Part shown: positions 19,381-64,000 of the stretch, in pieces
Numbering within the stretch: the stretch's first letter is position 1
Layout: each line of letters opens with the position of its first letter
Assembly (NCBI GenBank): GCA_028554795.2
Contig: CM068828.1
Location: 17,554,630 to 17,618,629 of the forward strand
Source: Sinohyriopsis cumingii
Lineage: Eukaryota > Mollusca > Bivalvia > Unionida > Unionidae
Length of the DNA stretch: 64,000 nt
Reading direction: 5' to 3'
Translations under genes and position numbers: made by a program
Notes under the pieces: model-generated
Database searches by the model: none
The model's input: only the letters and a program-made list of their open reading frames with translations
Told to the model about the DNA's origin: nothing

Positions 19381-19397
19381 TTTGATCTAGATCAAAA

Positions 19398-30306: not shown

Positions 30307-30917
30307 TACGTCTCAGTGCTTTCCTTCTTCATGTTCAACAGTGCCGTGAAATGTTCATGCGGTCTCTTTCCAAAACGGTCAATCAGTCCTTTCCTGAGTT
30401 CCAGGTAATCACCACAAGCTTGAGTTGCAACATATCTAGCCTCCCTTGTCAACAGAGTTCTTAGCTGTAATACTTTCAACTCGTCAGACCACTTGGCATG
30501 TTTTGCAATTGATTCAAACTCTGCTAGGAAAGTCACAATATCCTCTCCTCGTTCATGGTCATATGCATGTAGCTTTACTTTTAAGGCATTGAAGATGTTT
30601 TTTTCAGTCGTGTTTTCTTGAGGTTTTACTTTTTCTAACTCAATTTCCAAACGCTTCATTTCTAATCTTAATTTCTCTCTTTCCATTTCCCATTCAAACT
30701 CCTTCTGTCTTAATTCAAATTCTCTTTCATTTCTCTTTGCGCTAGTTTTTCGCTTTGTTTCCTTGGGTGGTTGCATGTGCTGAAGGTTAAGTTCCTCTTC
30801 ATACTCCATAACTTCATTATCTGTAAATTCCATCAAATTCTGTGCTGCCGCTTTTCTTCGTGGTCGTCCTGAAGCAACCGTGGCTCCCTCAACTTCGACA
30901 TCATCAGCAACCGACAT
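30307..30917 (-). pseudogene. gag: gag-protease, 5' part only (cut by assembly gap)
   Basis: This holds the first 203 codons of gag from the ATG at 30915-30917, identical in sequence to the copies to the right, then the gap. Truncation is an assembly effect, not necessarily a biological one. Confidence 0.9.
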
Positions 30918-31201
30918 AATGACCAACTATATGTACGTACTGTAAGTTCTATCACTGTATTCACAGCCACTGGACTAGCTTTAATTAATTATCTACGAGT
31001 TTATGGGCTTACACGTGTACACTCGTTACAGTGATACACACTTTGCACTTGGCAATTAACAACTGTACGTTATACACACAGTACAACCAGTCACTGCTAA
31101 TATCACAGATTCACTGAATTCACAGCTTTCATAATTGTCAAACACAATTCCAACGTATTGAAAAAATTCCAAATAATTCACACAGGATTTTTCGAATCCG
31201 T

Positions 31202-31214
31202 ACCGCTGCCACCA
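31202..31214 (-). promoter_or_regulatory. Primer-binding site, tRNA-Leu(AAG) type
   Basis: Three bases after the 5' LTR end the minus strand reads TGGTGGCAGCGGT, complementary to a 3' tRNA end ACCGCTGCCACCA. That is the acceptor end of animal tRNA-Leu(AAG). A further TTCGAATCC on the plus strand (31191-31199) mirrors the tRNA T-loop and stem, displaced by one base. The site recurs every 3962 bp (35164, 39126, 43088, 47050, 51012, 54974, 58936, 62898). Confidence 0.85.
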
Positions 31215-31217
31215 AAA

Positions 31218-31578
31218 TGTTACATTCGGGTTCAAAGGACACACAAACACCAAGTCAGGGTCCTACAACTTTATGTAAAATAAAGCTAAAATCTTAAAAA
31301 TAAACTAGAAAAACCAGAGTTCATTACAGTACCAAGCCCAGCTAAAAACTGCTTGCTCTATCACTCTGCTCTTGTTTTAGTAAGGGTTAGACACATGGGA
31401 TTCTAATTAAATTAACATTTGTTCCTTATCCAGGCTCAGATAGCCATGGGAAGATAAACAATAGCACTGAACCTGTTGACAGTCTCTGGTATCAAATATC
31501 CAGAATGCTGGGAATAATGTTCTGCTGTCACTACTAACAATTAGATTCTGCTAGAATATGATACAGGCACTTATAACA
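31218..31578 (-). mobile_element. LTR 1 of the array (361 bp)
   Basis: Read on the minus strand it starts TGTTATAAGTGCC and ends GAATGTAACA, giving TGTTA/TAACA inverted termini. The boundaries are fixed by the polypurine tract on one side and the primer-binding site on the other. It serves both the partial unit to its left (as 5' LTR) and unit A to its right (as 3' LTR). Confidence 0.93.
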
Positions 31579-31589
31579 CCTCCCTTCTT
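31579..31589 (-). promoter_or_regulatory. Polypurine tract
   Basis: The minus strand reads AAGAAGGGAGG immediately before the LTR start TGTTAT, the expected site for plus-strand DNA priming. It recurs at the same position in every unit (next at 35541). Confidence 0.85.
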
Positions 31590-31840
31590 AAGAGGAAACT
31601 TTATGTTTTCGATATAATATTTTTGAAATACTTGCTGGCTTGGTACATCAGTAAAATTGATAAAACTTGTATAAAGCTTACATTATTATCAGAATGCATA
31701 AAGCTTACAGTCACTATTAAAATCACACAAATTGGTCTATATTCACATAAATTTCTTATGATTTTAAACAGAACACAATGAAGTTCCAAAAGTCCAGGAA
31801 TCCTGAGCTATTCCAGGTTTTTCAGCGTCCTTGGAGTGTA
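31590..31840 (-). other. 3' region after the RT deletion junction (unit A)
   Basis: This segment of about 250 bp lies between the integrase/RT-start stop codon and the polypurine tract. One frame just after the junction reads SKDAEKPGIAQDSWTFGTSL before a stop, and could be the very C-terminus of the lost polyprotein. No RT catalytic motif (YxDD) or RNase H motif is present. Confidence 0.5.
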
Positions 31841-33190
31841 CTAATCACCAGTATCTCTCGTCATTTTATTCCTACATACTTCTGTTACATGCGCGAAAGG
31901 TATTCTATATGGCTGTTGTTTAATTGGTAGCTCCGAAGTTGTCTTTATACTGTGAGTTAAGATGTTTGTTCGACCAGGCCTAGTTGTTAGAACATCCTGA
32001 AATTCATTGCAAAGATTTCTAATATCCTCTCGTTGGTCTTTTGTCAAGTTTACCCCCAGCTTAACGCCAGCATCATCTTCACCTGCTCTTGGAAGAAAAT
32101 CAATATCCACACCATCGTTCTCGTATGCCTTCGTCGCCAGCAGCACAGCACGCTTGTATCCACGCAGCAAGTTTATATGATAGGTAACTGTACCGCGCCT
32201 ACCGGGTATAGATACCTGGTAGTTAACATCGTTTACCTTCCGGACCACACGATAAGGTCCCTGCCATTGTGCCTTCATCTTGGACGAACTTGATGGCAAG
32301 AGAATGAGGACTTCATCTCCAGGACTGAATTCTCGTGTTTTCGTGTGACGATCATACAGTGCCTTGATTTTCTTTTGGCGATCCAACAGATTATCTTTGA
32401 CAAGAGCCCCGATGTCAGCCAACTTCTCACGCATTTTCACAACATGCTCCACAGTTGACTTCCTTACATCTTCCTCTCCTGTAAACAAGCCTTGTAAAAT
32501 CTGCATTGGCCCCCTAACTGGCCAACCATACAACATCTCAAAGGGTGCAAATCCAGTTTCCTCATGTGGGACTTCGCGGTATGCAAACAACAAAAATGGC
32601 AACATCTCATCCCATTCATTCTTGTTGTCTGTACAGAACTTCCGCAACATTGACTTCAAGGTCCCGTTAAAACGTTCTACTTTTCCATTCGCTTGCGGGT
32701 GATACGGCGTTGTTGTAACTCCACGAATACCCACTAGTTCATACAGCTGTTTCAATAAGGTGCTAGTGAAGTTGGTCCCTTTGTCTGTTAATACGACCCT
32801 TGGAAAACCAACACGGCTAAACAGCTCAATCAGTGCTCTAGCTACACTAGTTGCCTCCATATCCTTCAAAGGAAAAGCTTCGGGATACCTCGTTGCATCA
32901 TCAACAACCGTCAGAATGTATTTGTGTCCAGACTTCGTTCTAGATAACAGTCCAACAATATCCATTGCAATTTTTGAGAACGGTTCTGTTATCACCGGTG
33001 GGCATGCCAGTGGTGCTTTCTCACCTGCAGTCCGTTTTGCTGTCATCTGGCATTCATGACACGATGTACAATATCTTTTTACATCGGAAAACATTCCAGG
33101 CCAAAAGAACGATTGGAGAATCCTCTCTTTTGTTTTCTCCAAACCCAGGTGACCTGCAAGGGGTCGATCATGTGCCAGCTCCATTACCAT
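31841..33190 (-). CDS. pol: Integrase plus RT N-terminal stub, unit A (reference copy)
   Basis: This is a 449-residue frame. Zinc-binding residues H7, H14, C41 and C44 form an HHCC domain. The catalytic core has D77 (KIAMDIVG), D136 (VLTDKGTNF) and E172 (NGKVERFNG), with 35 residues between the last two: a complete DD35E triad. A GPY/F domain follows at 309-313 (WQGPY). After a linker, residues 382-449 match the start of a Ty3/gypsy RT (LTKDQREDIRNLCNEFQDVL, then PIKQQPYRIPFAH). The frame stops there, before any RT catalytic block. RT follows IN, whereas most Ty3/gypsy elements have RT before IN. Upstream, the frame is open back to the UGA ending gag-protease (33260-33262), so the first ATG is probably not the natural start. 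The integrase looks intact and would insert cDNA if made; RT and RNase H are absent. Confidence 0.93.
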   Translation of the reverse strand: MVMELAHDRPLAGHLGLEKTKERILQSFFWPGMFSDVKRYCTSCHECQMTAKRTAGEKAPLACPPVITEPFSKIAMDIVGLLSRTKSGHKYILTVVDDATRYPEAFPLKDMEATSVARALIELFSRVGFPRVVLTDKGTNFTSTLLKQLYELVGIRGVTTTPYHPQANGKVERFNGTLKSMLRKFCTDNKNEWDEMLPFLLFAYREVPHEETGFAPFEMLYGWPVRGPMQILQGLFTGEEDVRKSTVEHVVKMREKLADIGALVKDNLLDRQKKIKALYDRHTKTREFSPGDEVLILLPSSSSKMKAQWQGPYRVVRKVNDVNYQVSIPGRRGTVTYHINLLRGYKRAVLLATKAYENDGVDIDFLPRAGEDDAGVKLGVNLTKDQREDIRNLCNEFQDVLTTRPGRTNILTHSIKTTSELPIKQQPYRIPFAHVTEVCRNKMTRDTGD

Positions 33191-33259
33191 TTTCCGTAAT
33201 CCTGCTGGTACAACTATTTGCTCCCCTCCATGTGAACCATCACCAGATTGCCATTTCCG

Positions 33260-33262
33260 TCA
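33260..33262 (-). promoter_or_regulatory. In-frame UGA (UGA-CGG) between protease and integrase
   Basis: On the minus strand TGA is followed by CGG, and the same frame stays open for 473 codons beyond it. Conserved integrase N-terminal residues lie on both sides, so this codon replaces an amino acid in the ancestral protein. UGA-CGG is a known leaky context in some plant RNA viruses. Readthrough or a founder nonsense mutation are both possible. Present in every unit. Confidence 0.6.
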
Positions 33263-34879
33263 CAAAATATCATTCTCCCAGAAGAATGCCATTGGCTCCT
33301 CCTCAGCCTCTTCACGAGTAGCAAAGGACTTCTCTCTAATACTTTGCAGTGAAATATCCGCAATCTGTAGTTTCGACAACATGTCCGCATTCATTGCTGA
33401 AAGTTCGTCAACTTCAATGTCATCACGCTGATCAGGATCTTCTGTCTCGATGCTGTTGTTGACAAAGTCATTCTTACCCTCATGCTCACATTGATCAGTA
33501 TTTTCCACAGTCCTCTCATCGTCGAGTCCTTTTAACATCGACCTCGTAACAACAAATGACCCTTTCTTGCTAAGTATATCCATCCCCAATAGGGCTTCAG
33601 CGGCTAGATTTGAAACAAGACCCACTTGCGCTGGTCCCTTATAATACGTAGTGTCGATATTTACCACAGCCAACTGTGCGGTAAATGGCTGACCCACTGC
33701 TGTGTATAACGTAACCTTGTGCCCCTCCAGCTTGCAACTCTCATCAACAAGATCTTCTCTTATCAAGGTCATATCTGATCCAGTGTCCTTCACAAACATG
33801 ATCTCGCGCCCATTCACACATCCTGTTTCTGAAATAAGCCTTTCACCAATTGTTGGCTTAACAAAACAAGTTGCCGGATTGCCACGATGTTTCATGTCAT
33901 CTGTTGGACAATACCTTGCAATATGTCCCCATTGTTTGCATCGATAACACTGCCTATTCTTCTGCTTGGACTGGTCTTTTATCGATGTCAGTTTTGCTTG
34001 CTGCTGTAAGTTCTGACTATTCATCTTGTTACTATTTACATTTATATTTTGATGAAACTTAATCCGCTGCCCTTGCTGTTGTAAATTTGTGGGAATATAA
34101 TCTTCCGCGGCCTCTACGACTGGACTAGAGCCCTTGTTCCTCCTAATCCACTGTGCTTGATCTTGTGGCAAGGCTTTCAAGAAAAATTCCTCACGAAGAC
34201 AAATAACTGGGTCATGATCTTCCAAGAAACGCTTTATGTGCTGATCAATCCTGGCCATCAGACCACGATACGTCTCAGTGCTTTCCTTCTTCATGTTCAA
34301 CAGTGCCGTGAAATGTTCATGCGGTCTCTTTCCAAAACGGTCAATCAGTCCTTTCCTGAGTTCCAGGTAATCACCACAAGCTTGAGTTGCAACATATCTA
34401 GCCTCCCTTGTCAACAGAGTTCTTAGCTGTAATACTTTCAACTCGTCAGACCACTTGGCATGTTTTGCAATTGATTCAAACTCTGCTAGGAAAGTCACAA
34501 TATCCTCTCCTCGTTCATGGTCATATGCATGTAGCTTTACTTTTAAGGCATTGAAGATGTTTTTTTCAGTCGTGTTTTCTTGAGGTTTTACTTTTTCTAA
34601 CTCAATTTCCAAACGCTTCATTTCTAATCTTAATTTCTCTCTTTCCATTTCCCATTCAAACTCCTTCTGTCTTAATTCAAATTCTCTTTCATTTCTCTTT
34701 GCGCTAGTTTTTCGCTTTGTTTCCTTGGGTGGTTGCATGTGCTGAAGGTTAAGTTCCTCTTCATACTCCATAACTTCATTATCTGTAAATTCCATCAAAT
34801 TCTGTGCTGCCGCTTTTCTTCGTGGTCGTCCTGAAGCAACCGTGGCTCCCTCAACTTCGACATCATCAGCAACCGACAT
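33260..34879 (-). CDS. gag: Gag-protease polyprotein, unit A (reference copy)
   Basis: 539 codons from the first ATG; the frame is open three codons further upstream from a TTG. Residues 57-98 are a charged heptad-like helix (coiled coil). Residues 120-260 form the capsid, whose C-terminal part (187-260, with REEFFLKALPQDQAQWIRRN) resembles the SCAN fold. A single CCHC knuckle follows (C311, C314, H319, C324). The aspartic protease has D365-T366-G367 and an LLGMDIL block at 430-436. The last 40 residues (LQIADISLQSIREK, then FFWENDIL) are the start of the integrase N-terminal region. So gag, protease and integrase are one frame, cut by UGA at 33260-33262. Gag would assemble particles and package RNA; the protease would mature them. 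All key residues are present and the frame is intact in all eight complete units. Confidence 0.93.
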   Translation of the reverse strand: MSVADDVEVEGATVASGRPRRKAAAQNLMEFTDNEVMEYEEELNLQHMQPPKETKRKTSAKRNEREFELRQKEFEWEMEREKLRLEMKRLEIELEKVKPQENTTEKNIFNALKVKLHAYDHERGEDIVTFLAEFESIAKHAKWSDELKVLQLRTLLTREARYVATQACGDYLELRKGLIDRFGKRPHEHFTALLNMKKESTETYRGLMARIDQHIKRFLEDHDPVICLREEFFLKALPQDQAQWIRRNKGSSPVVEAAEDYIPTNLQQQGQRIKFHQNINVNSNKMNSQNLQQQAKLTSIKDQSKQKNRQCYRCKQWGHIARYCPTDDMKHRGNPATCFVKPTIGERLISETGCVNGREIMFVKDTGSDMTLIREDLVDESCKLEGHKVTLYTAVGQPFTAQLAVVNIDTTYYKGPAQVGLVSNLAAEALLGMDILSKKGSFVVTRSMLKGLDDERTVENTDQCEHEGKNDFVNNSIETEDPDQRDDIEVDELSAMNADMLSKLQIADISLQSIREKSFATREEAEEEPMAFFWENDIL

Positions 34880-35179
34880 AATGACCAACTATATGTACGT
34901 ACTGTAAGTTCTATCACTGTATTCACAGCCACTGGACTAGCTTTAATTAATTATCTACGAGTTTATGGGCTTACACGTGTACACTCGTTACAGTGATACA
35001 CACTTTGCACTTGGCAATTAACAACTGTACGTTATACACACAGTACAACCAGTCACTGCTAATATCACAGATTCACTGAATTCACAGCTTTCATAATTGT
35101 CAAACACAATTCCAACGTATTGAAAAAATTCCAAATAATTCACACAGGATTTTTCGAATCCGTACCGCTGCCACCAAAA

Positions 35180-35540
35180 TGTTACATTCGGGTTCAAAGG
35201 ACACACAAACACCAAGTCAGGGTCCTACAACTTTATGTAAAATAAAGCTAAAATCTTAAAAATAAACTAGAAAAACCAGAGTTCATTACAGTACCAAGCC
35301 CAGCTAAAAACTGCTTGCTCTATCACTCTGCTCTTGTTTTAGTAAGGGTTAGACACATGGGATTCTAATTAAATTAACATTTGTTCCTTATCCAGGCTCA
35401 GATAGCCATGGGAAGATAAACAATAGCACTGAACCTGTTGACAGTCTCTGGTATCAAATATCCAGAATGCTGGGAATAATGTTCTGCTGTCACTACTAAC
35501 AATTAGATTCTGCTAGAATATGATACAGGCACTTATAACA
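35180..35540 (-). mobile_element. LTR 2
   Basis: Same boundaries and length as LTR 1, 3962 bp away. No diagnostic variant was seen. Confidence 0.93.
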
Positions 35541-35802
35541 CCTCCCTTCTTAAGAGGAAACTTTATGTTTTCGATATAATATTTTTGAAATACTTGCTGG
35601 CTTGGTACATCAGTAAAATTGATAAAACTTGTATAAAGCTTACATTATTATCAGAATGCATAAAGCTTACAGTCACTATTAAAATCACACAAATTGGTCT
35701 ATATTCACATAAATTTCTTATGATTTTAAACAGAACACAATGAAGTTCCAAAAGTCCAGGAATCCTGAGCTATTCCAGGTTTTTCAGCGTCCTTGGAGTG
35801 TA

Positions 35803-37152
35803 CTAATCACCAGTATCTCTCGTCATTTTATTCCTACATACTTCTGTTACATGCGCGAAAGGTATTCTATATGGCTGTTGTTTAATTGGTAGCTCCGAAG
35901 TTGTCTTTATACTGTGAGTTAAGATGTTTGTTCGACCAGGCCTAGTTGTTAGAACATCCTGAAATTCATTGCAAAGATTTCTAATATCCTCTCGTTGGTC
36001 TTTTGTCAAGTTTACCCCCAGCTTAACGCCAGCATCATCTTCACCTGCTCTTGGAAGAAAATCAATATCCACACCATCGTTCTCGTATGCCTTCGTCGCC
36101 AGCAGCACAGCACGCTTGTATCCACGCAGCAAGTTTATATGATAGGTAACTGTACCGCGCCTACCGGGTATAGATACCTGGTAGTTAACATCGTTTACCT
36201 TCCGGACCACACGATAAGGTCCCTGCCATTGTGCCTTCATCTTGGACGAACTTGATGGCAAGAGAATGAGGACTTCATCTCCAGGACTGAATTCTCGTGT
36301 TTTCGTGTGACGATCATACAGTGCCTTGATTTTCTTTTGGCGATCCAACAGATTATCTTTGACAAGAGCCCCGATGTCAGCCAACTTCTCACGCATTTTC
36401 ACAACATGCTCCACAGTTGACTTCCTTACATCTTCCTCTCCTGTAAACAAGCCTTGTAAAATCTGCATTGGCCCCCTAACTGGCCAACCATACAACATCT
36501 CAAAGGGTGCAAATCCAGTTTCCTCATGTGGGACTTCGCGGTATGCAAACAACAAAAATGGCAACATCTCATCCCATTCATTCTTGTTGTCTGTACAGAA
36601 CTTCCGCAACATTGACTTCAAGGTCCCGTTAAAACGTTCTACTTTTCCATTCGCTTGCGGGTGATACGGCGTTGTTGTAACTCCACGAATACCCACTAGT
36701 TCATACAGCTGTTTCAATAAGGTGCTAGTGAAGTTGGTCCCTTTGTCTGTTAATACGACCCTTGGAAAACCAACACGGCTAAACAGCTCAATCAGTGCTC
36801 TAGCTACACTAGTTGCCTCCATATCCTTCAAAGGAAAAGCTTCGGGATACCTCGTTGCATCATCAACAACCGTCAGAATGTATTTGTGTCCAGACTTCGT
36901 TCTAGATAACAGTCCAACAATATCCATTGCAATTTTTGAGAACGGTTCTGTTATCACCGGTGGGCATGCCAGTGGTGCTTTCTCACCTGCAGTCCGTTTT
37001 GCTGTCATCTGGCATTCATGACACGATGTACAATATCTTTTTACATCGGAAAACATTCCAGGCCAAAAGAACGATTGGAGAATCCTCTCTTTTGTTTTCT
37101 CCAAACCCAGGTGACCTGCAAGGGGTCGATCATGTGCCAGCTCCATTACCAT
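35803..37152 (-). CDS. pol: Integrase plus RT stub, unit B
   Basis: Intact 449-residue copy with the same sequence as unit A at the variable sites (L421, P422, E239). The complete DD35E triad and GPY motif are present. Confidence 0.92.
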   Translation of the reverse strand: MVMELAHDRPLAGHLGLEKTKERILQSFFWPGMFSDVKRYCTSCHECQMTAKRTAGEKAPLACPPVITEPFSKIAMDIVGLLSRTKSGHKYILTVVDDATRYPEAFPLKDMEATSVARALIELFSRVGFPRVVLTDKGTNFTSTLLKQLYELVGIRGVTTTPYHPQANGKVERFNGTLKSMLRKFCTDNKNEWDEMLPFLLFAYREVPHEETGFAPFEMLYGWPVRGPMQILQGLFTGEEDVRKSTVEHVVKMREKLADIGALVKDNLLDRQKKIKALYDRHTKTREFSPGDEVLILLPSSSSKMKAQWQGPYRVVRKVNDVNYQVSIPGRRGTVTYHINLLRGYKRAVLLATKAYENDGVDIDFLPRAGEDDAGVKLGVNLTKDQREDIRNLCNEFQDVLTTRPGRTNILTHSIKTTSELPIKQQPYRIPFAHVTEVCRNKMTRDTGD

Positions 37153-37221
37153 TTTCCGTAATCCTGCTGGTACAACTATTTGCTCCCCTCCATGTGAACC
37201 ATCACCAGATTGCCATTTCCG

Positions 37222-38841
37222 TCACAAAATATCATTCTCCCAGAAGAATGCCATTGGCTCCTCCTCAGCCTCTTCACGAGTAGCAAAGGACTTCTCTCTA
37301 ATACTTTGCAGTGAAATATCCGCAATCTGTAGTTTCGACAACATGTCCGCATTCATTGCTGAAAGTTCGTCAACTTCAATGTCATCACGCTGATCAGGAT
37401 CTTCTGTCTCGATGCTGTTGTTGACAAAGTCATTCTTACCCTCATGCTCACATTGATCAGTATTTTCCACAGTCCTCTCATCGTCGAGTCCTTTTAACAT
37501 CGACCTCGTAACAACAAATGACCCTTTCTTGCTAAGTATATCCATCCCCAATAGGGCTTCAGCGGCTAGATTTGAAACAAGACCCACTTGCGCTGGTCCC
37601 TTATAATACGTAGTGTCGATATTTACCACAGCCAACTGTGCGGTAAATGGCTGACCCACTGCTGTGTATAACGTAACCTTGTGCCCCTCCAGCTTGCAAC
37701 TCTCATCAACAAGATCTTCTCTTATCAAGGTCATATCTGATCCAGTGTCCTTCACAAACATGATCTCGCGCCCATTCACACATCCTGTTTCTGAAATAAG
37801 CCTTTCACCAATTGTTGGCTTAACAAAACAAGTTGCCGGATTGCCACGATGTTTCATGTCATCTGTTGGACAATACCTTGCAATATGTCCCCATTGTTTG
37901 CATCGATAACACTGCCTATTCTTCTGCTTGGACTGGTCTTTTATCGATGTTAGTTTTGCTTGCTGCTGTAAGTTCTGACTATTCATCTTGTTACTATTTA
38001 CATTTATATTTTGATGAAACTTAATCCGCTGCCCTTGCTGTTGTAAATTTGTGGGAATATAATCTTCCGCGGCCTCTACGACTGGACTAGAGCCCTTGTT
38101 CCTCCTAATCCACTGTGCTTGATCTTGTGGCAAGGCTTTCAAGAAAAATTCCTCACGAAGACAAATAACTGGGTCATGATCTTCCAAGAAACGCTTTATG
38201 TGCTGATCAATCCTGGCCATCAGACCACGATACGTCTCAGTGCTTTCCTTCTTCATGTTCAACAGTGCCGTGAAATGTTCATGCGGTCTCTTTCCAAAAC
38301 GATCAATCAGTCCTTTCCTGAGTTCCAGGTAATCACCACAAGCTTGAGTTGCAACATATCTAGCCTCCCTTGTCAACAGAGTTCTTAGCTGTAATACTTT
38401 CAACTCGTCAGACCACTTGGCATGTTTTGCAATTGATTCAAACTCTGCTAGGAAAGTCACAATATCCTCTCCTCGTTCATGGTCATATGCATGTAGCTTT
38501 ACTTTTAAGGCATTGAAGATGTTTTTTTCAGTCGTGTTTTCTTGAGGTTTTACTTTTTCTAACTCAATTTCCAAACGCTTCATTTCTAATCTTAATTTCT
38601 CTCTTTCCATTTCCCATTCAAACTCCTTCTGTCTTAATTCAAATTCTCTTTCATTTCTCTTTGCGCTAGTTTTTCGCTTTGTTTCCTTGGGTGGTTGCAT
38701 GTGCTGAAGGTTAAGTTCCTCTTCATACTCCATAACTTCATTATCTGTAAATTCCATCAAATTCTGTGCTGCCGCTTTTCTTCGTGGTCGTCCTGAAGCA
38801 ACCGTGGCTCCCTCAACTTCGACATCATCAGCAACCGACAT
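37222..38841 (-). CDS. gag: Gag-protease, unit B
   Basis: Intact copy. It has a silent change at 37951 that is shared only with units F, G and H, and a private silent change near 38302. Its leader carries G at 39117, within the T-loop-like extension of the primer site, shared only with unit F. Confidence 0.92.
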   Translation of the reverse strand: MSVADDVEVEGATVASGRPRRKAAAQNLMEFTDNEVMEYEEELNLQHMQPPKETKRKTSAKRNEREFELRQKEFEWEMEREKLRLEMKRLEIELEKVKPQENTTEKNIFNALKVKLHAYDHERGEDIVTFLAEFESIAKHAKWSDELKVLQLRTLLTREARYVATQACGDYLELRKGLIDRFGKRPHEHFTALLNMKKESTETYRGLMARIDQHIKRFLEDHDPVICLREEFFLKALPQDQAQWIRRNKGSSPVVEAAEDYIPTNLQQQGQRIKFHQNINVNSNKMNSQNLQQQAKLTSIKDQSKQKNRQCYRCKQWGHIARYCPTDDMKHRGNPATCFVKPTIGERLISETGCVNGREIMFVKDTGSDMTLIREDLVDESCKLEGHKVTLYTAVGQPFTAQLAVVNIDTTYYKGPAQVGLVSNLAAEALLGMDILSKKGSFVVTRSMLKGLDDERTVENTDQCEHEGKNDFVNNSIETEDPDQRDDIEVDELSAMNADMLSKLQIADISLQSIREKSFATREEAEEEPMAFFWENDIL

Positions 38842-39141
38842 AATGACCAACTATATGTACGTACTGTAAGTTCTATCACTGTATTCACAGCCACTGGACT
38901 AGCTTTAATTAATTATCTACGAGTTTATGGGCTTACACGTGTACACTCGTTACAGTGATACACACTTTGCACTTGGCAATTAACAACTGTACGTTATACA
39001 CACAGTACAACCAGTCACTGCTAATATCACAGATTCACTGAATTCACAGCTTTCATAATTGTCAAACACAATTCCAACGTATTGAAAAAATTCCAAATAA
39101 TTCACACAGGATTTTTGGAATCCGTACCGCTGCCACCAAAA

Positions 39142-39502
39142 TGTTACATTCGGGTTCAAAGGACACACAAACACCAAGTCAGGGTCCTACAACTTTATGT
39201 AAAATAAAGCTAAAATCTTAAAAATAAACTAGAAAAACCAGAGTTCATTACAGTACCAAGCCCAGCTAAAAACTGCTTGCTCTATCACTCTGCTCTTGTT
39301 TTAGTAAGGGTTAGACACATGGGATTCTAATTAAATTAACATTTGTTCCTTATCCAGGCTCAGATAGCCATGGGAAGATAAACAATAGCACTGAACCTGT
39401 TGACAGTCTCTGGTATCAAATATCCAGAATGCTGGGAATAATGTTCTGCTGTCACTACTAACAATTAGATTCTGCTAGAATATGATACAGGCACTTATAA
39501 CA
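39142..39502 (-). mobile_element. LTR 3
   Basis: 361 bp, same termini. No diagnostic variant was seen. Confidence 0.93.
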
Positions 39503-39764
39503 CCTCCCTTCTTAAGAGGAAACTTTATGTTTTCGATATAATATTTTTGAAATACTTGCTGGCTTGGTACATCAGTAAAATTGATAAAACTTGTATAAAG
39601 CTTACATTATTATCAGAATGCATAAAGCTTACAGTCACTATTAAAATCACACAAATTGGTCTATATTCACATAAATTTCTTATGATTTTAAACAGAACAC
39701 AATGAAGTTCCAAAAGTCCAGGAATCCTGAGCTATTCCAGGTTTTTCAGCGTCCTTGGAGTGTA

Positions 39765-41114: not shown

Positions 41115-41183
41115 TTTCCGTAATCCTGCTGGTACAACTATTTGCTCCCCTCCATGTGAACCATCACCAGATTGCCATTTCCG

Positions 41184-42803: not shown

Positions 42804-43103
42804 AATGACCAACTATATGTACGTACTGTAAGTTCTATCACTGTATTCACAGCCACTGGACTAGCTTTAATTAATTATCTACGAGTTTATGGGCTTACAC
42901 GTGTACACTCGTTACAGTGATACACACTTTGCACTTGGCAATTAACAACTGTACGTTATACACACAGTACAACCAGTCACTGCTAATATCACAGATTCAC
43001 TGAATTCACAGCTTTCATAATTGTCAAACACAATTCCAACGTATTGAAAAAATTCCAAATAATTCACACAGGATTTTTCGAATCCGTACCGCTGCCACCA
43101 AAA

Positions 43104-45076: not shown

Positions 45077-45145
45077 TTTCCGTAATCCTGCTGGTACAAC
45101 TATTTGCTCCCCTCCATGTGAACCATCACCAGATTGCCATTTCCG

Positions 45146-49038: not shown

Positions 49039-49107
49039 TTTCCGTAATCCTGCTGGTACAACTATTTGCTCCCCTCCATGTGAACCATCACCAGATTGCC
49101 ATTTCCG

Positions 49108-51027: not shown

Positions 51028-51388
51028 TGTTACATTCGGGTTCAAAGGACACACAAACACCAAGTCAGGGTCCTACAACTTTATGTAAAATAAAGCTAAA
51101 ATCTTAAAAATAAACTAGAAAAACCAGAGTTCATTACAGTACCAAGCCCAGCTAAAAACTGCTTGCTCTATCACTCTGCTCTTGTTTTAGTAAGGGTTAG
51201 ACACATGGGATTCTAATTAAATTAACATTTGTTCCTTATCCAGGCTCAGATAGCCATGGGAAGATAAACAATAGCACTGAACCTGTTGACAGTCTCTGGT
51301 ATCAAATATCCAGAATGCTGGGAATAATGTTCTGCTGTCACTACTAACAATTAGATTCTGCTAGAATATGATACAGGCACTTATAACA
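51028..51388 (-). mobile_element. LTR 6
   Basis: 361 bp, same termini. No diagnostic variant was seen. Confidence 0.93.
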
Positions 51389-51650
51389 CCTCCCTTCTTA
51401 AGAGGAAACTTTATGTTTTCGATATAATATTTTTGAAATACTTGCTGGCTTGGTACATCAGTAAAATTGATAAAACTTGTATAAAGCTTACATTATTATC
51501 AGAATGCATAAAGCTTACAGTCACTATTAAAATCACACAAATTGGTCTATATTCACATAAATTTCTTATGATTTTAAACAGAACACAATGAAGTTCCAAA
51601 AGTCCAGGAATCCTGAGCTATTCCAGGTTTTTCAGCGTCCTTGGAGTGTA

Positions 51651-53000: not shown

Positions 53001-53069
53001 TTTCCGTAATCCTGCTGATACAACTATTTGCTCCCCTCCATGTGAACCATCACCAGATTGCCATTTCCG

Positions 53070-54689: not shown

Positions 54690-54989
54690 AATGACCAACT
54701 ATATGTACGTACTGTAAGTTCTATCACTGTATTCACAGCCACTGGACTAGCTTTAATTAATTATCTACGAGTTTATGGGCTTACACGTGTACACTCGTTA
54801 CAGTGATACACACTTTGCACTTGGCAATTAACAACTGTACGTTATACACACAGTACAACCAGTCACTGCTAATATCACAGATTCACTGAATTCACAGCTT
54901 TCATAATTGTCAAACACAATTCCAACGTATTGAAAAAATTCCAAATAATTCACACAGGATTTTTGGAATCCGTACCGCTGCCACCAAAA

Positions 54990-55350
54990 TGTTACATTCG
55001 GGTTCAAAGGACACACAAACACCAAGTCAGGGTCCTACAACTTTATGTAAAATAAAGCTAAAATCTTAAAAATAAACTAGAAAGACCAGAGTTCATTACA
55101 GTACCAAGCCCAGCTAAAAACTGCTTGCTCTATCACTCTGCTCTTGTTTTAGTAAGGGTTAGACACATGGGATTCTAATTAAATTAACATTTGTTCCTTA
55201 TCCAGGCTCAGATAGCCATGGGAAGATAAACAATAGCACTGAACCTGTTGACAGTCTCTGGTATCAAATATCCAGAATGCTGGGAATAATGTTCTGCTGT
55301 CACTACTAACAATTAGATTCTGCTAGAATATGATACATGCACTTATAACA
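54990..55350 (-). mobile_element. LTR 7
   Basis: 361 bp. It has T at 55338, near the LTR's start on the minus strand, shared with LTR 8 only, and a private G at 55084. Confidence 0.93.
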
Positions 55351-55612
55351 CCTCCCTTCTTAAGAGGAAACTTTATGTTTTCGATATAATATTTTTGAAA
55401 TACTTGCTGGCTTGGTACATCAGTAAAATTGATAAAACTTGTATAAAGCTTACATTATTATCAGAATGCATAAAGCTTACAGTCACTATTAAAATCACAC
55501 AAATTGGTCTATATTCACATAAATTTCTTATGATTTTAAACAGAACACAATGAAGTTCCAAAAGTCCAGGAATCCTGAGCTATTCCAGGTTTTTCAGCGT
55601 CCTTGGAGTGTA

Positions 55613-56962
55613 CTAATCACCAGTATCTCTCGTCATTTTATTCCTACATACTTCTGTTACATGCGCGAAAGGTATTCTATATGGCTGTTGTTTAATTGGT
55701 AGCTCCGAAGTTGTCTTTATACTGTGAGTTAAGATGTTTGTTCGACCAAGCCTAGTTGTTAGAACATCCTGAAATTCATTGCAAAGATTTCTAATATCCT
55801 CTCGTTGGTCTTTTGTCAAGTTTACCCCCAGCTTAACGCCAGCATCATCTTCACCTGCTCTTGGAAGAAAATCAATATCCACACCATCGTTCTCGTATGC
55901 CTTCGTCGCCAGCAGCACAGCACGCTTGTATCCACGCAGCAAGTTTATATGATAGGTAACTGTACCGCGCCTACCGGGTATAGATACCTGGTAGTTAACA
56001 TCGTTTACCTTCCGGACCACACGATAAGGTCCCTGCCATTGTGCCTTCATCTTGGACGAACTTGATGGCAAGAGAATGAGGACTTCATCTCCAGGACTGA
56101 ATTCTCGTGTTTTCGTGTGACGATCATACAGTGCCTTGATTTTCTTTTGGCGATCCAACAGATTATCTTTGACAAGAGCCCCGATGTCAGCCAACTTCTC
56201 ACGCATTTTCACAACATGCTCCACAGTTGACTTCCTTACATCTTCCTGTCCTGTAAACAAGCCTTGTAAAATCTGCATTGGCCCCCTAACTGGCCAACCA
56301 TACAACATCTCAAAGGGTGCAAATCCAGTTTCCTCATGTGGGACTTCGCGGTATGCAAACAACAAAAATGGCAACATCTCATCCCATTCATTCTTGTTGT
56401 CTGTACAGAACTTCCGCAACATTGACTTCAAGGTCCCGTTAAAACGTTCTACTTTTCCATTCGCTTGCGGGTGATACGGCGTTGTTGTAACTCCACGAAT
56501 ACCCACTAGTTCATACAGCTGTTTCAATAAGGTGCTAGTGAAGTTGGTCCCTTTGTCTGTTAATACGACCCTTGGAAAACCAACACGGCTAAACAGCTCA
56601 ATCAGTGCTCTAGCTACACTAGTTGCCTCCATATCCTTCAAAGGAAAAGCTTCGGGATACCTCGTTGCATCATCAACAACCGTCAGAATGTATTTGTGTC
56701 CAGACTTCGTTCTAGATAACAGTCCAACAATATCCATTGCAATTTTTGAGAACGGTTCTGTTATCACCGGTGGGCATGCCAGTGGTGCTTTCTCACCTGC
56801 AGTCCGTTTTGCTGTCATCTGGCATTCATGACACGATGTACAATATCTTTTTACATCGGAAAACATTCCAGGCCAAAAGAACGATTGGAGAATCCTCTCT
56901 TTTGTTTTCTCCAAACCCAGGTGACCTGCAAGGGGTCGATCATGTGCCAGCTCCATTACCAT
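55613..56962 (-). CDS. pol: Integrase plus RT stub, unit G
   Basis: Intact copy with E239Q (56248), shared only with unit H, and a private P405L (55749) in the RT stub. Confidence 0.92.
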   Translation of the reverse strand: MVMELAHDRPLAGHLGLEKTKERILQSFFWPGMFSDVKRYCTSCHECQMTAKRTAGEKAPLACPPVITEPFSKIAMDIVGLLSRTKSGHKYILTVVDDATRYPEAFPLKDMEATSVARALIELFSRVGFPRVVLTDKGTNFTSTLLKQLYELVGIRGVTTTPYHPQANGKVERFNGTLKSMLRKFCTDNKNEWDEMLPFLLFAYREVPHEETGFAPFEMLYGWPVRGPMQILQGLFTGQEDVRKSTVEHVVKMREKLADIGALVKDNLLDRQKKIKALYDRHTKTREFSPGDEVLILLPSSSSKMKAQWQGPYRVVRKVNDVNYQVSIPGRRGTVTYHINLLRGYKRAVLLATKAYENDGVDIDFLPRAGEDDAGVKLGVNLTKDQREDIRNLCNEFQDVLTTRLGRTNILTHSIKTTSELPIKQQPYRIPFAHVTEVCRNKMTRDTGD

Positions 56963-57031
56963 TTTCCGTAATCCTGCTGGTACAACTATTTGCTCCCCTC
57001 CATGTGAACCATCACCAGATTGCCATTTCCG

Positions 57032-58651
57032 TCACAAAATATCATTCTCCCAGAAGAATGCCATTGGCTCCTCCTCAGCCTCTTCACGAGTAGCAAAGGA
57101 CTTCTCTCTAATACTTTGCAGTGAAATATCCGCAATCTGTAGTTTCGACAACATGTCCGCATTCATTGCTGAAAGTTCGTCAACTTCAATGTCATCACGC
57201 TGATCAGGATCTTCTGTCTCGATGCTGTTGTTGACAAAGTCATTCTTACCCTCATGCTCACATTGATCAGTATTTTCCACAGTCCTCTCATCGTCGAGTC
57301 CTTTTAACATCGACCTCGTAACAACAAATGACCCTTTCTTGCTAAGTATATCCATCCCCAATAGGGCTTCAGCGGCTAGATTTGAAACAAGACCCACTTG
57401 CGCTGGTCCCTTATAATACGTAGTGTCGATATTTACCACAGCCAACTGTGCGGTAAATGGCTGACCCACTGCTGTGTATAACGTAACCTTGTGCCCCTCC
57501 AGCTTGCAACTCTCATCAACAAGATCTTCTCTTATCAAGGTCATATCTGATCCAGTGTCCTTCACAAACATGATCTCGCGCCCATTCACACATCCTGTTT
57601 CTGAAATAAGCCTTTCACCAATTGTTGGCTTAACAAAACAAGTTGCCGGATTGCCACGATGTTTCATGTCATCTGTTGGACAATACCTTGCAATATGTCC
57701 CCATTGTTTGCATCGATAACACTGCCTATTCTTCTGCTTGGACTGGTCTTTTATCGATGTTAGTTTTGCTTGCTGCTGTAAGTTCTGACTATTCATCTTG
57801 TTACTATTTACATTTATATTTTGATGAAACTTAATCCGCTGCCCTTGCTGTTGTAAATTTGTGGGAATATAATCTTCCGCGGCCTCTACGACTGGACTAG
57901 AGCCCTTGTTCCTCCTAATCCACTGTGCTTGATCTTGTGGCAAGGCTTTCAAGAAAAATTCCTCACGAAGACAAATAACTGGGTCATGATCTTCCAAGAA
58001 ACGCTTTATGTGCTGATCAATCCTGGCCATCAGACCACGATACGTCTCAGTGCTTTCCTTCTTCATGTTCAACAGTGCCGTGAAATGTTCATGCGGTCTC
58101 TTTCCAAAACGGTCAATCAGTCCTTTCCTGAGTTCCAGGTAATCACCACAAGCTTGAGTTGCAACATATCTAGCCTCCCTTGTCAACAGAGTTCTTAGCT
58201 GTAATACTTTCAACTCGTCAGACCACTTGGCATGTTTTGCAATTGATTCAAACTCTGCTAGGAAAGTCACAATATCCTCTCCTCGTTCATGGTCATATGC
58301 ATGTAGCTTTACTTTTAAGGCATTGAAGATGTTTTTTTCAGTCGTGTTTTCTTGAGGTTTTACTTTTTCTAACTCAATTTCCAAACGCTTCATTTCTAAT
58401 CTTAATTTCTCTCTTTCCATTTCCCATTCAAACTCCTTCTGTCTTAATTCAAATTCTCTTTCATTTCTCTTTGCGCTAGTTTTTCGCTTTGTTTCCTTGG
58501 GTGGTTGCATGTGCTGAAGGTTAAGTTCCTCTTCATACTCCATAACTTCATTATCTGTAAATTCCATCAAATTCTGTGCTGCCGCTTTTCTTCGTGGTCG
58601 TCCTGAAGCAACCGTGGCTCCCTCAACTTCGACATCATCAGCAACCGACAT
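57032..58651 (-). CDS. gag: Gag-protease, unit G
   Basis: Intact copy with the silent variant at 57761 shared with B, F and H. Confidence 0.92.
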   Translation of the reverse strand: MSVADDVEVEGATVASGRPRRKAAAQNLMEFTDNEVMEYEEELNLQHMQPPKETKRKTSAKRNEREFELRQKEFEWEMEREKLRLEMKRLEIELEKVKPQENTTEKNIFNALKVKLHAYDHERGEDIVTFLAEFESIAKHAKWSDELKVLQLRTLLTREARYVATQACGDYLELRKGLIDRFGKRPHEHFTALLNMKKESTETYRGLMARIDQHIKRFLEDHDPVICLREEFFLKALPQDQAQWIRRNKGSSPVVEAAEDYIPTNLQQQGQRIKFHQNINVNSNKMNSQNLQQQAKLTSIKDQSKQKNRQCYRCKQWGHIARYCPTDDMKHRGNPATCFVKPTIGERLISETGCVNGREIMFVKDTGSDMTLIREDLVDESCKLEGHKVTLYTAVGQPFTAQLAVVNIDTTYYKGPAQVGLVSNLAAEALLGMDILSKKGSFVVTRSMLKGLDDERTVENTDQCEHEGKNDFVNNSIETEDPDQRDDIEVDELSAMNADMLSKLQIADISLQSIREKSFATREEAEEEPMAFFWENDIL

Positions 58652-58951
58652 AATGACCAACTATATGTACGTACTGTAAGTTCTATCACTGTATTCACAG
58701 CCACTGGACTAGCTTTAATTAATTATCTACGAGTTTATGGGCTTACACGTGTACACTCGTTACAGTGATACACACTTTGCACTTGGCAATTAACAACTGT
58801 ACGTTATACACACAGTACAACCAGTCACTGCTAATATCACAGATTCACTGAATTCACAGCTTTCATAATTGTCAAACACAATTCCAACGTATTGAAAAAA
58901 TTCCAAATAATTCACACAGGATTTTTCGAATCCGTACCGCTGCCACCAAAA

Positions 58952-59312
58952 TGTTACATTCGGGTTCAAAGGACACACAAACACCAAGTCAGGGTCCTAC
59001 AACTTTATGTAAAATAAAGCTAAAATCTTAAAAATAAACTAGAAAAACCAGAGTTCATTACAGTACCAAGCCCAGCTAAAAACTGCTTGCTCTATCACTC
59101 TGCTCTTGTTTTAGTAAGGGTTAGACACATGGGATTCTAATTAAATTAACATTTGTTCCTTATCCAGGCTCAGATAGCCATGGGAAGATAAACAATAGCA
59201 CTGAACCTGTTGACAGTCTCTGGTATCAAATATCCAGAATGCTGGGAATAATGTTCTGCTGTCACTACTAACAATTAGATTCTGCTAGAATATGATACAT
59301 GCACTTATAACA
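58952..59312 (-). mobile_element. LTR 8
   Basis: 361 bp with T at 59300, as in LTR 7. Confidence 0.93.
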
Positions 59313-59574
59313 CCTCCCTTCTTAAGAGGAAACTTTATGTTTTCGATATAATATTTTTGAAATACTTGCTGGCTTGGTACATCAGTAAAATTGATAAAAC
59401 TTGTATAAAGCTTACATTATTATCAGAATGCATAAAGCTTACAGTCACTATTAAAATCACACAAATTGGTCTATATTCACATAAATTTCTTATGATTTTA
59501 AACAGAACACAATGAAGTTCCAAAAGTCCAGGAATCCTGAGCTATTCCAGGTTTTTCAGCGTCCTTGGAGTGTA

Positions 59575-60924
59575 CTAATCACCAGTATCTCTCGTCATTT
59601 TATTCCTACATACTTCTGTTACATGCGCGAAAGGTATTCTATATGGCTGTTGTTTAATTGGTAGCTCCGAAGTTGTCTTTATACTGTGAGTTAAGATGTT
59701 TGTTCGACCAGGCCTAGTTGTTAGAACATCCTGAAATTCATTGCAAAGATTTCTAATATCCTCTCGTTGGTCTTTTGTCAAGTTTACCCCCAGCTTAACG
59801 CCAGCATCATCTTCACCTGCTCTTGGAAGAAAATCAATATCCACACCATCGTTCTCGTATGCCTTCGTCGCCAGCAGCACAGCACGCTTGTATCCACGCA
59901 GCAAGTTTATATGATAGGTAACTGTACCGCGCCTACCGGGTATAGATACCTGGTAGTTAACATCGTTTACCTTCCGGACCACACGATAAGGTCCCTGCCA
60001 TTGTGCCTTCATCTTGGACGAACTTGATGGCAAGAGAATGAGGACTTCATCTCCAGGACTGAATTCTCGTGTTTTCGTGTGACGATCATACAGTGCCTTG
60101 ATTTTCTTTTGGCGATCCAACAGATTATCTTTGACAAGAGCCCCGATGTCAGCCAACTTCTCACGCATTTTCACAACATGCTCCACAGTTGACTTCCTTA
60201 CATCTTCCTGTCCTGTAAACAAGCCTTGTAAAATCTGCATTGGCCCCCTAACTGGCCAACCATACAACATCTCAAAGGGTGCAAATCCAGTTTCCTCATG
60301 TGGGACTTCGCGGTATGCAAACAACAAAAATGGCAACATCTCATCCCATTCATTCTTGTTGTCTGTACAGAACTTCCGCAACATTGACTTCAAGGTCCCG
60401 TTAAAACGTTCTACTTTTCCATTCGCTTGCGGGTGATACGGCGTTGTTGTAACTCCACGAATACCCACTAGTTCATACAGCTGTTTCAATAAGGTGCTAG
60501 TGAAGTTGGTCCCTTTGTCTGTTAATACGACCCTTGGAAAACCAACACGGCTAAACAGCTCAATCAGTGCTCTAGCTACACTAGTTGCCTCCATATCCTT
60601 CAAAGGAAAAGCTTCGGGATACCTCGTTGCATCATCAACAACCGTCAGAATGTATTTGTGTCCAGACTTCGTTCTAGATAACAGTCCAACAATATCCATT
60701 GCAATTTTTGAGAACGGTTCTGTTATCACCGGTGGGCATGCCAGTGGTGCTTTCTCACCTGCAGTCCGTTTTGCTGTCATCTGGCATTCATGACACGATG
60801 TACAATATCTTTTTACATCGGAAAACATTCCAGGCCAAAAGAACGATTGGAGAATCCTCTCTTTTGTTTTCTCCAAACCCAGGTGACCTGCAAGGGGTCG
60901 ATCATGTGCCAGCTCCATTACCAT
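59575..60924 (-). CDS. pol: Integrase plus RT stub, unit H
   Basis: Intact from its ATG, with E239Q (60210) as in unit G. The bridge to gag has G-to-A at 60984 (plus strand), which turns CAA into TAA four codons after the UGA. Readthrough could not produce a fused integrase from this unit. Confidence 0.92.
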   Translation of the reverse strand: MVMELAHDRPLAGHLGLEKTKERILQSFFWPGMFSDVKRYCTSCHECQMTAKRTAGEKAPLACPPVITEPFSKIAMDIVGLLSRTKSGHKYILTVVDDATRYPEAFPLKDMEATSVARALIELFSRVGFPRVVLTDKGTNFTSTLLKQLYELVGIRGVTTTPYHPQANGKVERFNGTLKSMLRKFCTDNKNEWDEMLPFLLFAYREVPHEETGFAPFEMLYGWPVRGPMQILQGLFTGQEDVRKSTVEHVVKMREKLADIGALVKDNLLDRQKKIKALYDRHTKTREFSPGDEVLILLPSSSSKMKAQWQGPYRVVRKVNDVNYQVSIPGRRGTVTYHINLLRGYKRAVLLATKAYENDGVDIDFLPRAGEDDAGVKLGVNLTKDQREDIRNLCNEFQDVLTTRPGRTNILTHSIKTTSELPIKQQPYRIPFAHVTEVCRNKMTRDTGD

Positions 60925-60993
60925 TTTCCGTAATCCTGCTGGTACAACTATTTGCTCCCCTCCATGTGAACCATCACCAGATTACCATTTCCG

Positions 60994-62613
60994 TCACAAA
61001 ATATCATTCTCCCAGAAGAATGCCATTGGCTCCTCCTCAGCCTCTTCACGAGTAGCAAAGGACTTCTCTCTAATACTTTGCAGTGAAATATCCGCAATCT
61101 GTAGTTTCGACAACATGTCCGCATTCATTGCTGAAAGTTCGTCAACTTCAATGTCATCACGCTGATCAGGATCTTCTGTCTCGATGCTGTTGTTGACAAA
61201 GTCATTCTTACCCTCATGCTCACATTGATCAGTATTTTCCACAGTCCTCTCATCGTCGAGTCCTTTTAACATCGACCTCGTAACAACAAATGACCCTTTC
61301 TTGCTAAGTATATCCATCCCCAATAGGGCTTCAGCGGCTAGATTTGAAACAAGACCCACTTGCGCTGGTCCCTTATAATACGTAGTGTCGATATTTACCA
61401 CAGCCAACTGTGCGGTAAATGGCTGACCCACTGCTGTGTATAACGTAACCTTGTGCCCCTCCAGCTTGCAACTCTCATCAACAAGATCTTCTCTTATCAA
61501 GGTCATATCTGATCCAGTGTCCTTCACAAACATGATCTCGCGCCCATTCACACATCCTGTTTCTGAAATAAGCCTTTCACCAATTGTTGGCTTAACAAAA
61601 CAAGTTGCCGGATTGCCACGATGTTTCATGTCATCTGTTGGACAATACCTTGCAATATGTCCCCATTGTTTGCATCGATAACACTGCCTATTCTTCTGCT
61701 TGGACTGGTCTTTTATCGATGTTAGTTTTGCTTGCTGCTGTAAGTTCTGACTATTCATCTTGTTACTATTTACATTTATATTTTGATGAAACTTAATCCG
61801 CTGCCCTTGCTGTTGTAAATTTGTGGGAATATAATCTTCCGCGGCCTCTACGACTGGACTAGAGCCCTTGTTCCTCCTAATCCACTGTGCTTGATCTTGT
61901 GGCAAGGCTTTCAAGAAAAATTCCTCACGAAGACAAATAACTGGGTCATGATCTTCCAAGAAACGCTTTATGTGCTGATCAATCCTGGCCATCAGACCAC
62001 GATACGTCTCAGTGCTTTCCTTCTTCATGTTCAACAGTGCCGTGAAATGTTCATGCGGTCTCTTTCCAAAACGGTCAATCAGTCCTTTCCTGAGTTCCAG
62101 GTAATCACCACAAGCTTGAGTTGCAACATATCTAGCCTCCCTTGTCAACAGAGTTCTTAGCTGTAATACTTTCAACTCGTCAGACCACTTGGCATGTTTT
62201 GCAATTGATTCAAACTCTGCTAGGAAAGTCACAATATCCTCTCCTCGTTCATGGTCATATGCATGTAGCTTTACTTTTAAGGCATTGAAGATGTTTTTTT
62301 CAGTCGTGTTTTCTTGAGGTTTTACTTTTTCTAACTCAATTTCCAAACGCTTCATTTCTAATCTTAATTTCTCTCTTTCCATTTCCCATTCAAACTCCTT
62401 CTGTCTTAATTCAAATTCTCTTTCATTTCTCTTTGCGCTAGTTTTTCGCTTTGTTTCCTTGGGTGGTTGCATGTGCTGAAGGTTAAGTTCCTCTTCATAC
62501 TCCATAACTTCATTATCTGTAAATTCCATCAAATTCTGTGCTGCCGCTTTTCTTCGTGGTCGTCCTGAAGCAACCGTGGCTCCGTCAACTTCGACATCAT
62601 CAGCAACCGACAT
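60994..62613 (-). CDS. gag: Gag-protease, unit H
   Basis: Intact copy with a private E10D change (62584) and the silent variant at 61723. A private base change at 62869 lies in its leader. Confidence 0.92.
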   Translation of the reverse strand: MSVADDVEVDGATVASGRPRRKAAAQNLMEFTDNEVMEYEEELNLQHMQPPKETKRKTSAKRNEREFELRQKEFEWEMEREKLRLEMKRLEIELEKVKPQENTTEKNIFNALKVKLHAYDHERGEDIVTFLAEFESIAKHAKWSDELKVLQLRTLLTREARYVATQACGDYLELRKGLIDRFGKRPHEHFTALLNMKKESTETYRGLMARIDQHIKRFLEDHDPVICLREEFFLKALPQDQAQWIRRNKGSSPVVEAAEDYIPTNLQQQGQRIKFHQNINVNSNKMNSQNLQQQAKLTSIKDQSKQKNRQCYRCKQWGHIARYCPTDDMKHRGNPATCFVKPTIGERLISETGCVNGREIMFVKDTGSDMTLIREDLVDESCKLEGHKVTLYTAVGQPFTAQLAVVNIDTTYYKGPAQVGLVSNLAAEALLGMDILSKKGSFVVTRSMLKGLDDERTVENTDQCEHEGKNDFVNNSIETEDPDQRDDIEVDELSAMNADMLSKLQIADISLQSIREKSFATREEAEEEPMAFFWENDIL

Positions 62614-62913
62614 AATGACCAACTATATGTACGTACTGTAAGTTCTATCACTGTATTCACAGCCACTGGACTAGCTTTAATTAATTATCTACGAGTTTAT
62701 GGGCTTACACGTGTACACTCGTTACAGTGATACACACTTTGCACTTGGCAATTAACAACTGTACGTTATACACACAGTACAACCAGTCACTGCTAATATC
62801 ACAGATTCACTGAATTCACAGCTTTCATAATTGTCAAACACAATTCCAACGTATTGAAAAAATTCCAAGTAATTCACACAGGATTTTTCGAATCCGTACC
62901 GCTGCCACCAAAA

Positions 62914-63274
62914 TGTTACATTCGGGTTCAAAGGACACACAAACACCAAGTCAGGGTCCTACAACTTTATGTAAAATAAAGCTAAAATCTTAAAAATAAA
63001 CTAGAAAAACCAGAGTTCATTACAGTACCAAGCCCAGCTAAAAACTGCTTGCTCTATCACTCTGCTCTTGTTTTAGTAAGGGTTAGACACATGGGATTCT
63101 AATTAAATTAACATTTGTTCCTTATCCAGGCTCAGATAGCCATGGGAAGATAAACAATAGCACTGAACCTGTTGACAGTCTCTGGTATCAAATATCCAGA
63201 ATGCTGGGAATAATGTTCTGCTGTCACTACTAACAATTAGATTCTGCTAGAATATGATACAGGCACTTATAACA
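62914..63274 (-). mobile_element. LTR 9
   Basis: 361 bp, with the common base rather than the LTR 7/8 variant. A private G at 63318 lies just outside it, in the 3' region of the last unit. Confidence 0.93.
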
Positions 63275-63536
63275 CCTCCCTTCTTAAGAGGAAACTTTAT
63301 GTTTTCGATATAATATTGTTGAAATACTTGCTGGCTTGGTACATCAGTAAAATTGATAAAACTTGTATAAAGCTTACATTATTATCAGAATGCATAAAGC
63401 TTACAGTCACTATTAAAATCACACAAATTGGTCTATATTCACATAAATTTCTTATGATTTTAAACAGAACACAATGAAGTTCCAAAAGTCCAGGAATCCT
63501 GAGCTATTCCAGGTTTTTCAGCGTCCTTGGAGTGTA

Positions 63537-64000
63537 CTAATCACCAGTATCTCTCGTCATTTTATTCCTACATACTTCTGTTACATGCGCGAAAGGTATT
63601 CTATATGGCTGTTGTTTAATTGGTAGCTCCGAAGTTGTCTTTATACTGTGAGTTAAGATGTTTGTTCGACCAGGCCTAGTTGTTAGAACATCCTGAAATT
63701 CATTGCAAAGATTTCTAATATCCTCTCGTTGGTCTTTTGTCAAGTTTACCCCCAGCTTAACGCCAGCATCATCTTCACCTGCTCTTGGAAGAAAATCAAT
63801 ATCCACACCATCGTTCTCGTATGCCTTCGTCGCCAGCAGCACAGCACGCTTGTATCCACGCAGCAAGTTTATATGATAGGTAACTGTACCGCGCCTACCG
63901 GGTATAGATACCTGGTAGTTAACATCGTTTACCTTCCGGACCACACGATAAGGTCCCTGCCATTGTGCCTTCATCTTGGACGAACTTGATGGCAAGAGAA
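63537..64000 (-). CDS. pol: Integrase C-terminus plus RT stub, last unit (cut by window edge)
   Basis: The frame covers the GPY/F region and the RT stub (Leu-Pro type) and runs off the right edge. It shows that the array continues beyond the window. Confidence 0.9.
   Translation of the reverse strand, partial: LLPSSSSKMKAQWQGPYRVVRKVNDVNYQVSIPGRRGTVTYHINLLRGYKRAVLLATKAYENDGVDIDFLPRAGEDDAGVKLGVNLTKDQREDIRNLCNEFQDVLTTRPGRTNILTHSIKTTSELPIKQQPYRIPFAHVTEVCRNKMTRDTGD

Follow-up and report, generated by a model that had tools for sequence, protein, structure and literature searches.

A tandem array of a putative Gmr1-type gypsy retrotransposon with shared long terminal repeats in Sinohyriopsis cumingii

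How does a retrotransposon bounded by long terminal repeats (LTRs) come to stand in head-to-tail copies that share single LTRs? The question is raised by a 64,000-nucleotide stretch of the genome of the unionid bivalve Sinohyriopsis cumingii (GenBank assembly GCA_028554795.2, contig CM068828.1, positions 17,554,630 to 17,618,629, forward strand), hereafter referred to as the window, whose right-hand part is occupied by tandem units of what appears to be a Ty3/gypsy element. A preliminary description of this DNA had claimed LTR-internal units repeated head to tail with single shared LTRs, an invariant 3962-bp period, nine LTRs and no intervening DNA. That anatomy is borne out by the analysis reported here.

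Anatomy and limits of the array

The repeat period of the segment from 30307 to 64000 is exactly 3962 bp. When shifts of 200 to 11999 were compared, the best self-matches were found at 3962, 7924 and 11886, the first with agreement at 99.91% of positions, and the best shift that is not a multiple of the period gave 29%. Chance is not an issue as a source of this periodicity. The array as seen measures 33,694 bp and its register is unbroken throughout, indicating no net insertion or deletion; 14 of the 3962 phases are variable, and the eight complete units differ on average at 4.2 of 3962 bp (0.105%, 28 pairs). Nine LTR-like blocks of 361 bp, present at all of the expected positions (31218+3962k), alternate with internal regions of 3601 bp with no other DNA in between. 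Thus, LTRs and internal regions alternate in a uniform orientation with a single LTR per junction, as in a shared-LTR tandem array. The array, its boundaries and the elements of each junction are as follows.

30307..64000, minus strand: tandem array, 8.5 units of 3962 bp, limited by the assembly gap to the left and by the end of the window to the right
30207..30306, no strand: assembly gap, 100 N, adjoining the array on its left
31218..31578, minus strand: LTR copy 1, 361 bp, bounds inferred from its TGTTA/TAACA ends and from the neighbouring sites listed below
Starts at 35180, 39142, 43104, 47066, 51028, 54990, 58952 and 62914, minus strand: LTR copies 2 to 9
31203..31214, minus strand: site resembling a primer-binding site (PBS), separated by 3 nt from the 3′ end of the LTR; the nearest 24 nt are the same at 9 of 9 LTRs
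31579..31594, minus strand: tract of polypurine (PPT) type beside the LTR 5′ end; 16 bp, identical at 9 of 9 LTRs

The repeated block begins with TGTTA and finishes with TAACA, having therefore TG..CA ends within 5-bp inverted repeats. These ends, the PPT-like tract and the PBS-like site identify the block, by inference, as a probable LTR. The PBS-like site may be complementary to the 3′ end of tRNA-Leu. Copies 2 to 6 and copy 9 are identical to copy 1, copy 7 departs from it by two bases and copy 8 by one. As the same bases flank all nine LTRs, every junction seen joins an LTR to an internal region, and none involves foreign DNA. The LTR (31218-31578) is also poor in CpG: its observed/expected ratio is 0.08, whereas the array as a whole has 0.67 and the left flank 0.70; methylation preceding amplification is perhaps the cause.

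Position 30307 is the first base past the 100-N gap and lies inside gag. It therefore marks the start of a contig rather than a biological edge. Since the array abuts the gap inside a unit, its position next to the left flank is provisional. The right end lies beyond the window, so that the array as assembled is at least 33.7 kb long.

Coding content and relatives of the unit

Each unit, on the minus strand, carries the PBS- and PPT-like sites and two open reading frames (ORFs), the first for gag and protease and the second for integrase, with a stop between them; of reverse transcriptase (RT), just the beginning follows.

33260..34879, minus strand: gag-protease ORF, 542 codons, recurring every 3962 bp; 8 complete copies and a partial one from 30307
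About 33905-33955, minus strand: CCHC knuckle of the gag ORF, under the Pfam cut-off
About 33569-33823, minus strand: aspartic protease of the gag-protease ORF
31841..33259, minus strand: integrase ORF, 472 codons, ending in the first RT residues; 8 complete copies, the ninth cut by the window end
About 33035-33211, about 32696-32989 and about 32162-32260, minus strand: H2C2, rve core and p58-type C-terminal domains of integrase, respectively
31579..31876, minus strand: region past the RT truncation, within which 31716-31853 resembles, in another frame, the C-terminal tail of the relative P0001

The aspartic protease barely exceeds its Pfam threshold (gag-asp_proteas, 28.3 bits; cut-off 28.2), and the integrase is recognized more clearly (Integrase_H2C2, 80.5 bits against 25.5; rve, 53.9 against 32.6). 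An aspartic protease together with an H2C2-type integrase is what is expected of a Ty3/gypsy element. The zf-CCHC match in gag scored 18.0 bits, below the cut-off of 20.8. RT and RNase H, also expected of a gypsy element, are not found: a profile search (E≤0.1) gave no match to RVT_1 or RNase H in either ORF. In-frame alignment to the relatives P0001, P0002 and P0042 stops at 31877, corresponding to the start of RT, and the 3′ part of the unit picks up the P0001 tail in another frame (53% identity over 49 residues, E 5e-5). The unit is thus a defective derivative of a Ty3/gypsy element, without most of RT and RNase H. We rejected its assignment to the terminal-repeat retrotransposons in miniature (TRIMs), which are short and non-coding, on account of the 542- and 472-codon frames.

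The stop between the ORFs and the RT truncation are common to all eight copies that cover both ORFs; the integrase copy at 59575-60981 has an additional stop near its start. That 8 of 8 copies share both defects shows that the founder was defective before amplification. It also argues against the array having been built by a number of separate insertions of one element, adjacent or nested. In favor of such insertions, gypsy elements are generally known to cluster in heterochromatin. Against them stand the exact 3962-bp period, the single orientation, the presence of one LTR per junction and the same bases beside nine LTRs; period, orientation and junctions rule such insertions out for the stretch seen, and we give this origin practically no chance.

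To which gypsy lineage does the unit belong? A protein search with the integrase frame yielded 692 matches at E≤0.001 (7985 candidates scored). Among the best 120 of the 692, the organisms named are mostly animals, including bivalves and fishes, with one entry labelled a gammaproteobacterial metagenome-assembled genome. The gag-protease frame gave 22 protein matches (7993 candidates scored); those with organism names are all from molluscs. The nearest named relatives, among the matches listed, are proteins of another unionid mussel, Sinanodonta woodiana, one of which (P0006) aligns to 52% of the integrase frame with 91% identity and to 97% of the gag frame with 76% identity. The best matches overall are P0001 for integrase (93% identity over 98%) and P0121 for gag (82% over 100%). 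Domains were scanned in seven chosen relatives. Four of these (P0001, P0002, P0026 and P0047) contain both rve and RVT_1, and rve comes first in all four; in P0001 the RVT_1 match covers only profile positions 2-86 of 205 and falls below the cut-off. Integrase before RT is the order described for the Gmr1 clade in passages of PMC6238403 and PMC8220671. The unit has this order as well, as its integrase runs in frame into the start of RT, the difference being the loss of almost the whole of RT and RNase H. By domain order, the unit would qualify as a Gmr1-type gypsy element.

P0001 sits on a 4400-bp contig, seemingly with an incomplete reverse transcriptase. It is possibly another derivative of the same family. 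Its short RT match and the likeness of its tail to the 3′ part of the unit suggest that a second member of the family may also have lost pol.

The unit's layout (LTR, PBS, gag-protease-integrase, PPT, LTR) is that of a transcription unit, so that each copy could still be transcribed, and it could be copied if intact relatives supplied the reverse transcriptase. The preliminary description had gone further and called the array a coding satellite. The first word is an overstatement: every unit has open gag-protease and integrase frames, but they are separated by a stop, and RT and RNase H are almost entirely lost. As to the second, what is at hand is one array of at least 8.5 units in one 64-kb window; satellite status is a matter of high copy number over long arrays and of position, usually in heterochromatin, beyond what a single window gives.

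Variation between units and origin of the array

The variable phases offer a means to follow the history of the units. Eight of the 14 are singletons and six have the minor allele in at least two units. Units 3-5 share variants at two sites 2 bp apart and units 7-8 at two sites; units 3 and 7 share one site, and units 2, 6, 7 and 8 share another. In the four-gamete test, phase 886 (the site common to units 3 and 7) conflicts with five other phases, including 1620, across the LTR. These conflicts, one of them with a breakpoint interval that spans the LTR, suggest exchange between units.

These findings bear first on the reality of the array. An assembler might have expanded a few copies or an array shorter than the one seen; alternatively, the scaffold might have taken in reads that came from a circle, either amplified or extrachromosomal. 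That the array meets the 100-N gap in the middle of a unit and that its copies are nearly identical both speak for such an artefact. However, the units can be told apart by variants, and 6 of the 14 occur in several units, unlike what copies of one unit or circle would show. Furthermore, assemblers usually collapse near-identical arrays rather than expand them. On balance an artefact is improbable.

We think it probable that the array results from young, local amplification of one defective Gmr1-type gypsy element, through unequal exchange between LTRs followed by exchange of whole units. The founder would have been a two-LTR element, already broken. Unequal homologous exchange between the 5′ LTR on one chromatid and the 3′ LTR on the other would have produced an LTR-internal-LTR-internal-LTR arrangement, and later exchanges, offset by whole units, would have made the array longer and homogenised it. 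Recombination of this type has precedent in passages of PMC11899658, PMC7215508 and PMC6934838.

Several observations weaken this interpretation. Both edges of the array lie outside the stretch seen, so that neither the single target duplication predicted by the model nor its absence is observed. Shared variants cluster only weakly in adjacent units, as 1408 of the 40320 possible orders of the eight complete units (3.5%) cluster as strongly. Two of the six shared sites, those 2 bp apart, probably reflect one event, and the singletons, 8 of the 14 variants, could be assembly errors. All of the four-gamete conflicts within units depend on phase 886, where recurrent mutation could be the cause instead. 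Finally, the conflict between phases 886 and 3682 disappears when 3682 is paired with the next unit, showing that the test depends on the point at which units are cut; such cross-border pairing yields four other conflicting pairs, one of which consists of the sites 2 bp apart.

An identical structure, including the single LTR in each unit, is expected if a concatemer had been inserted whole, made either by rolling-circle copying of a one-LTR circle of the defective element or as a transcript or cDNA, with unequal exchange occurring later or never. In favor of this alternative, PMC11899658 connects two tandems in rice with single insertions and points, by citation, to one-LTR circles that may have served as template; concatenated Cassandra transcripts are mentioned in a passage of PMC7215508. 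Against it, both of the rice loci treated at length contain two internal regions (Cassandra arrays reach 12 units, according to passages of PMC7215508), 33.7 kb would be long for a particle-borne cDNA, and the way in which variants are shared suggests that exchange followed anyway. We hold this origin to be doubtful, less so than an assembly artefact. Unequal crossover and a one-LTR circle were the two routes put forward in the preliminary description. Both are discussed in the literature, and PMC11899658 leaves insertion versus recombination undecided for the rice tandems, deeming both possible; with the anatomy borne out as well, the earlier interpretation is partly supported.

The left 30.2 kb of the window contain no further pieces of the element: blastn with the LTR and internal pieces (E≤1) returned matches of 14-25 bp only, and tblastn with eight relatives' proteins (E≤0.01) returned none. 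No Rfam family reached its gathering score in 1-36000, and the window has no tRNA genes. When viral contigs were searched for related DNA, one stretch fitted the peptide pattern and none was confirmed. A 195-codon frame to the left of the array drew 39 protein candidates, none at E≤0.001. Other features of this flank include a 3.1-kb stretch (14033-17139) that is 91% pyrimidine on the plus strand. Within it, a motif of about 100 bp with a lower pyrimidine content was seen three times in a simple window test (15003-15112, 15533-15642 and 16333-16432), its recurrence suggesting that the stretch is itself a long, degenerate repeat structure. A 77-bp tandem repeat in five copies with 86% matches occupies 18989-19384. 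Lastly, a 232-codon frame at 6854-7552 gives a weak RVT_1 match (26.9 bits; cut-off 29.6) and may belong to a Penelope-type element.

Known shared-LTR arrays and significance

Is the architecture new? The preliminary description implied as much, a view that does not survive comparison with published arrays from bivalves, from rice and other plants, from Cassandra and, as cited in PMC11899658, from kangaroos and yeast. The closest in terms of host are the bivalve biv-TRIM arrays, in which, according to passages of PMC6934838, x terminal repeats alternate with x-1 inner domains; in the Ruditapes philippinarum draft these reach TDR58_I57 (58 terminal repeats), with loci of up to 16,618 bp. The tandem pattern is the same; however, biv-TRIMs are described there as small and non-autonomous, whereas the present unit is 3962 bp long, has gag-protease and integrase frames and forms an array of at least 33.7 kb.

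In plants, a rice pangenome yielded 266 tandem candidates, 88% of them gypsy, and among 28 rice cases 80% had LTRs more than 95% identical (PMC11899658). The tandem LTR retrotransposons of rice, Arabidopsis, almond and cotton treated in that study resemble the present array in being coding and in sharing internal LTRs, and those of rice in being mostly gypsy; they differ in belonging to plants and, at both rice loci detailed, in having two internal regions as opposed to at least eight. Cassandra, in passages of PMC7215508, forms near-identical alternating LTR and internal units, with up to 12 repeats per array. The alternation is as found here, but Cassandra is a plant element without gag or pol and carries 5S RNA in its LTRs. 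PMC11899658 also cites the KERV megasatellite of kangaroos (Koga et al. 2023), tandem insertions in Drosophila and, in yeast, LTR-mediated tandems of Ty5. KERV, treated together with kangaroo and wallaby centromeres in passages of PMC5857280, is an endogenous retrovirus at centromeres. Passages of PMC10294476 describe no shared-LTR arrays, which is not to say that none have been published for unionids. Measured against these sources, as far as their passages extend, the kind of array is already known; what this case adds is its locus, the coding nature and Gmr1-type order of its element, and an array length above that of the biv-TRIM loci.

A bolder suggestion is that an RT-less retrotransposon has turned into a multi-unit gag-protease-integrase locus, in which each LTR would drive its own unit and the raised dose of Gag and integrase might help or hinder related elements. 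We regard this as a very remote prospect. As its units are almost uniform, with variation confined to 14 phases, the array is a good site at which to ask whether such structures are born by a single insertion or grow by LTR-LTR exchange. With this locus, a coding gypsy element with Gmr1-type order joins the LTR elements that form shared-LTR arrays in animals, the bivalve precedent, in the passages of PMC6934838, being one of TRIMs.

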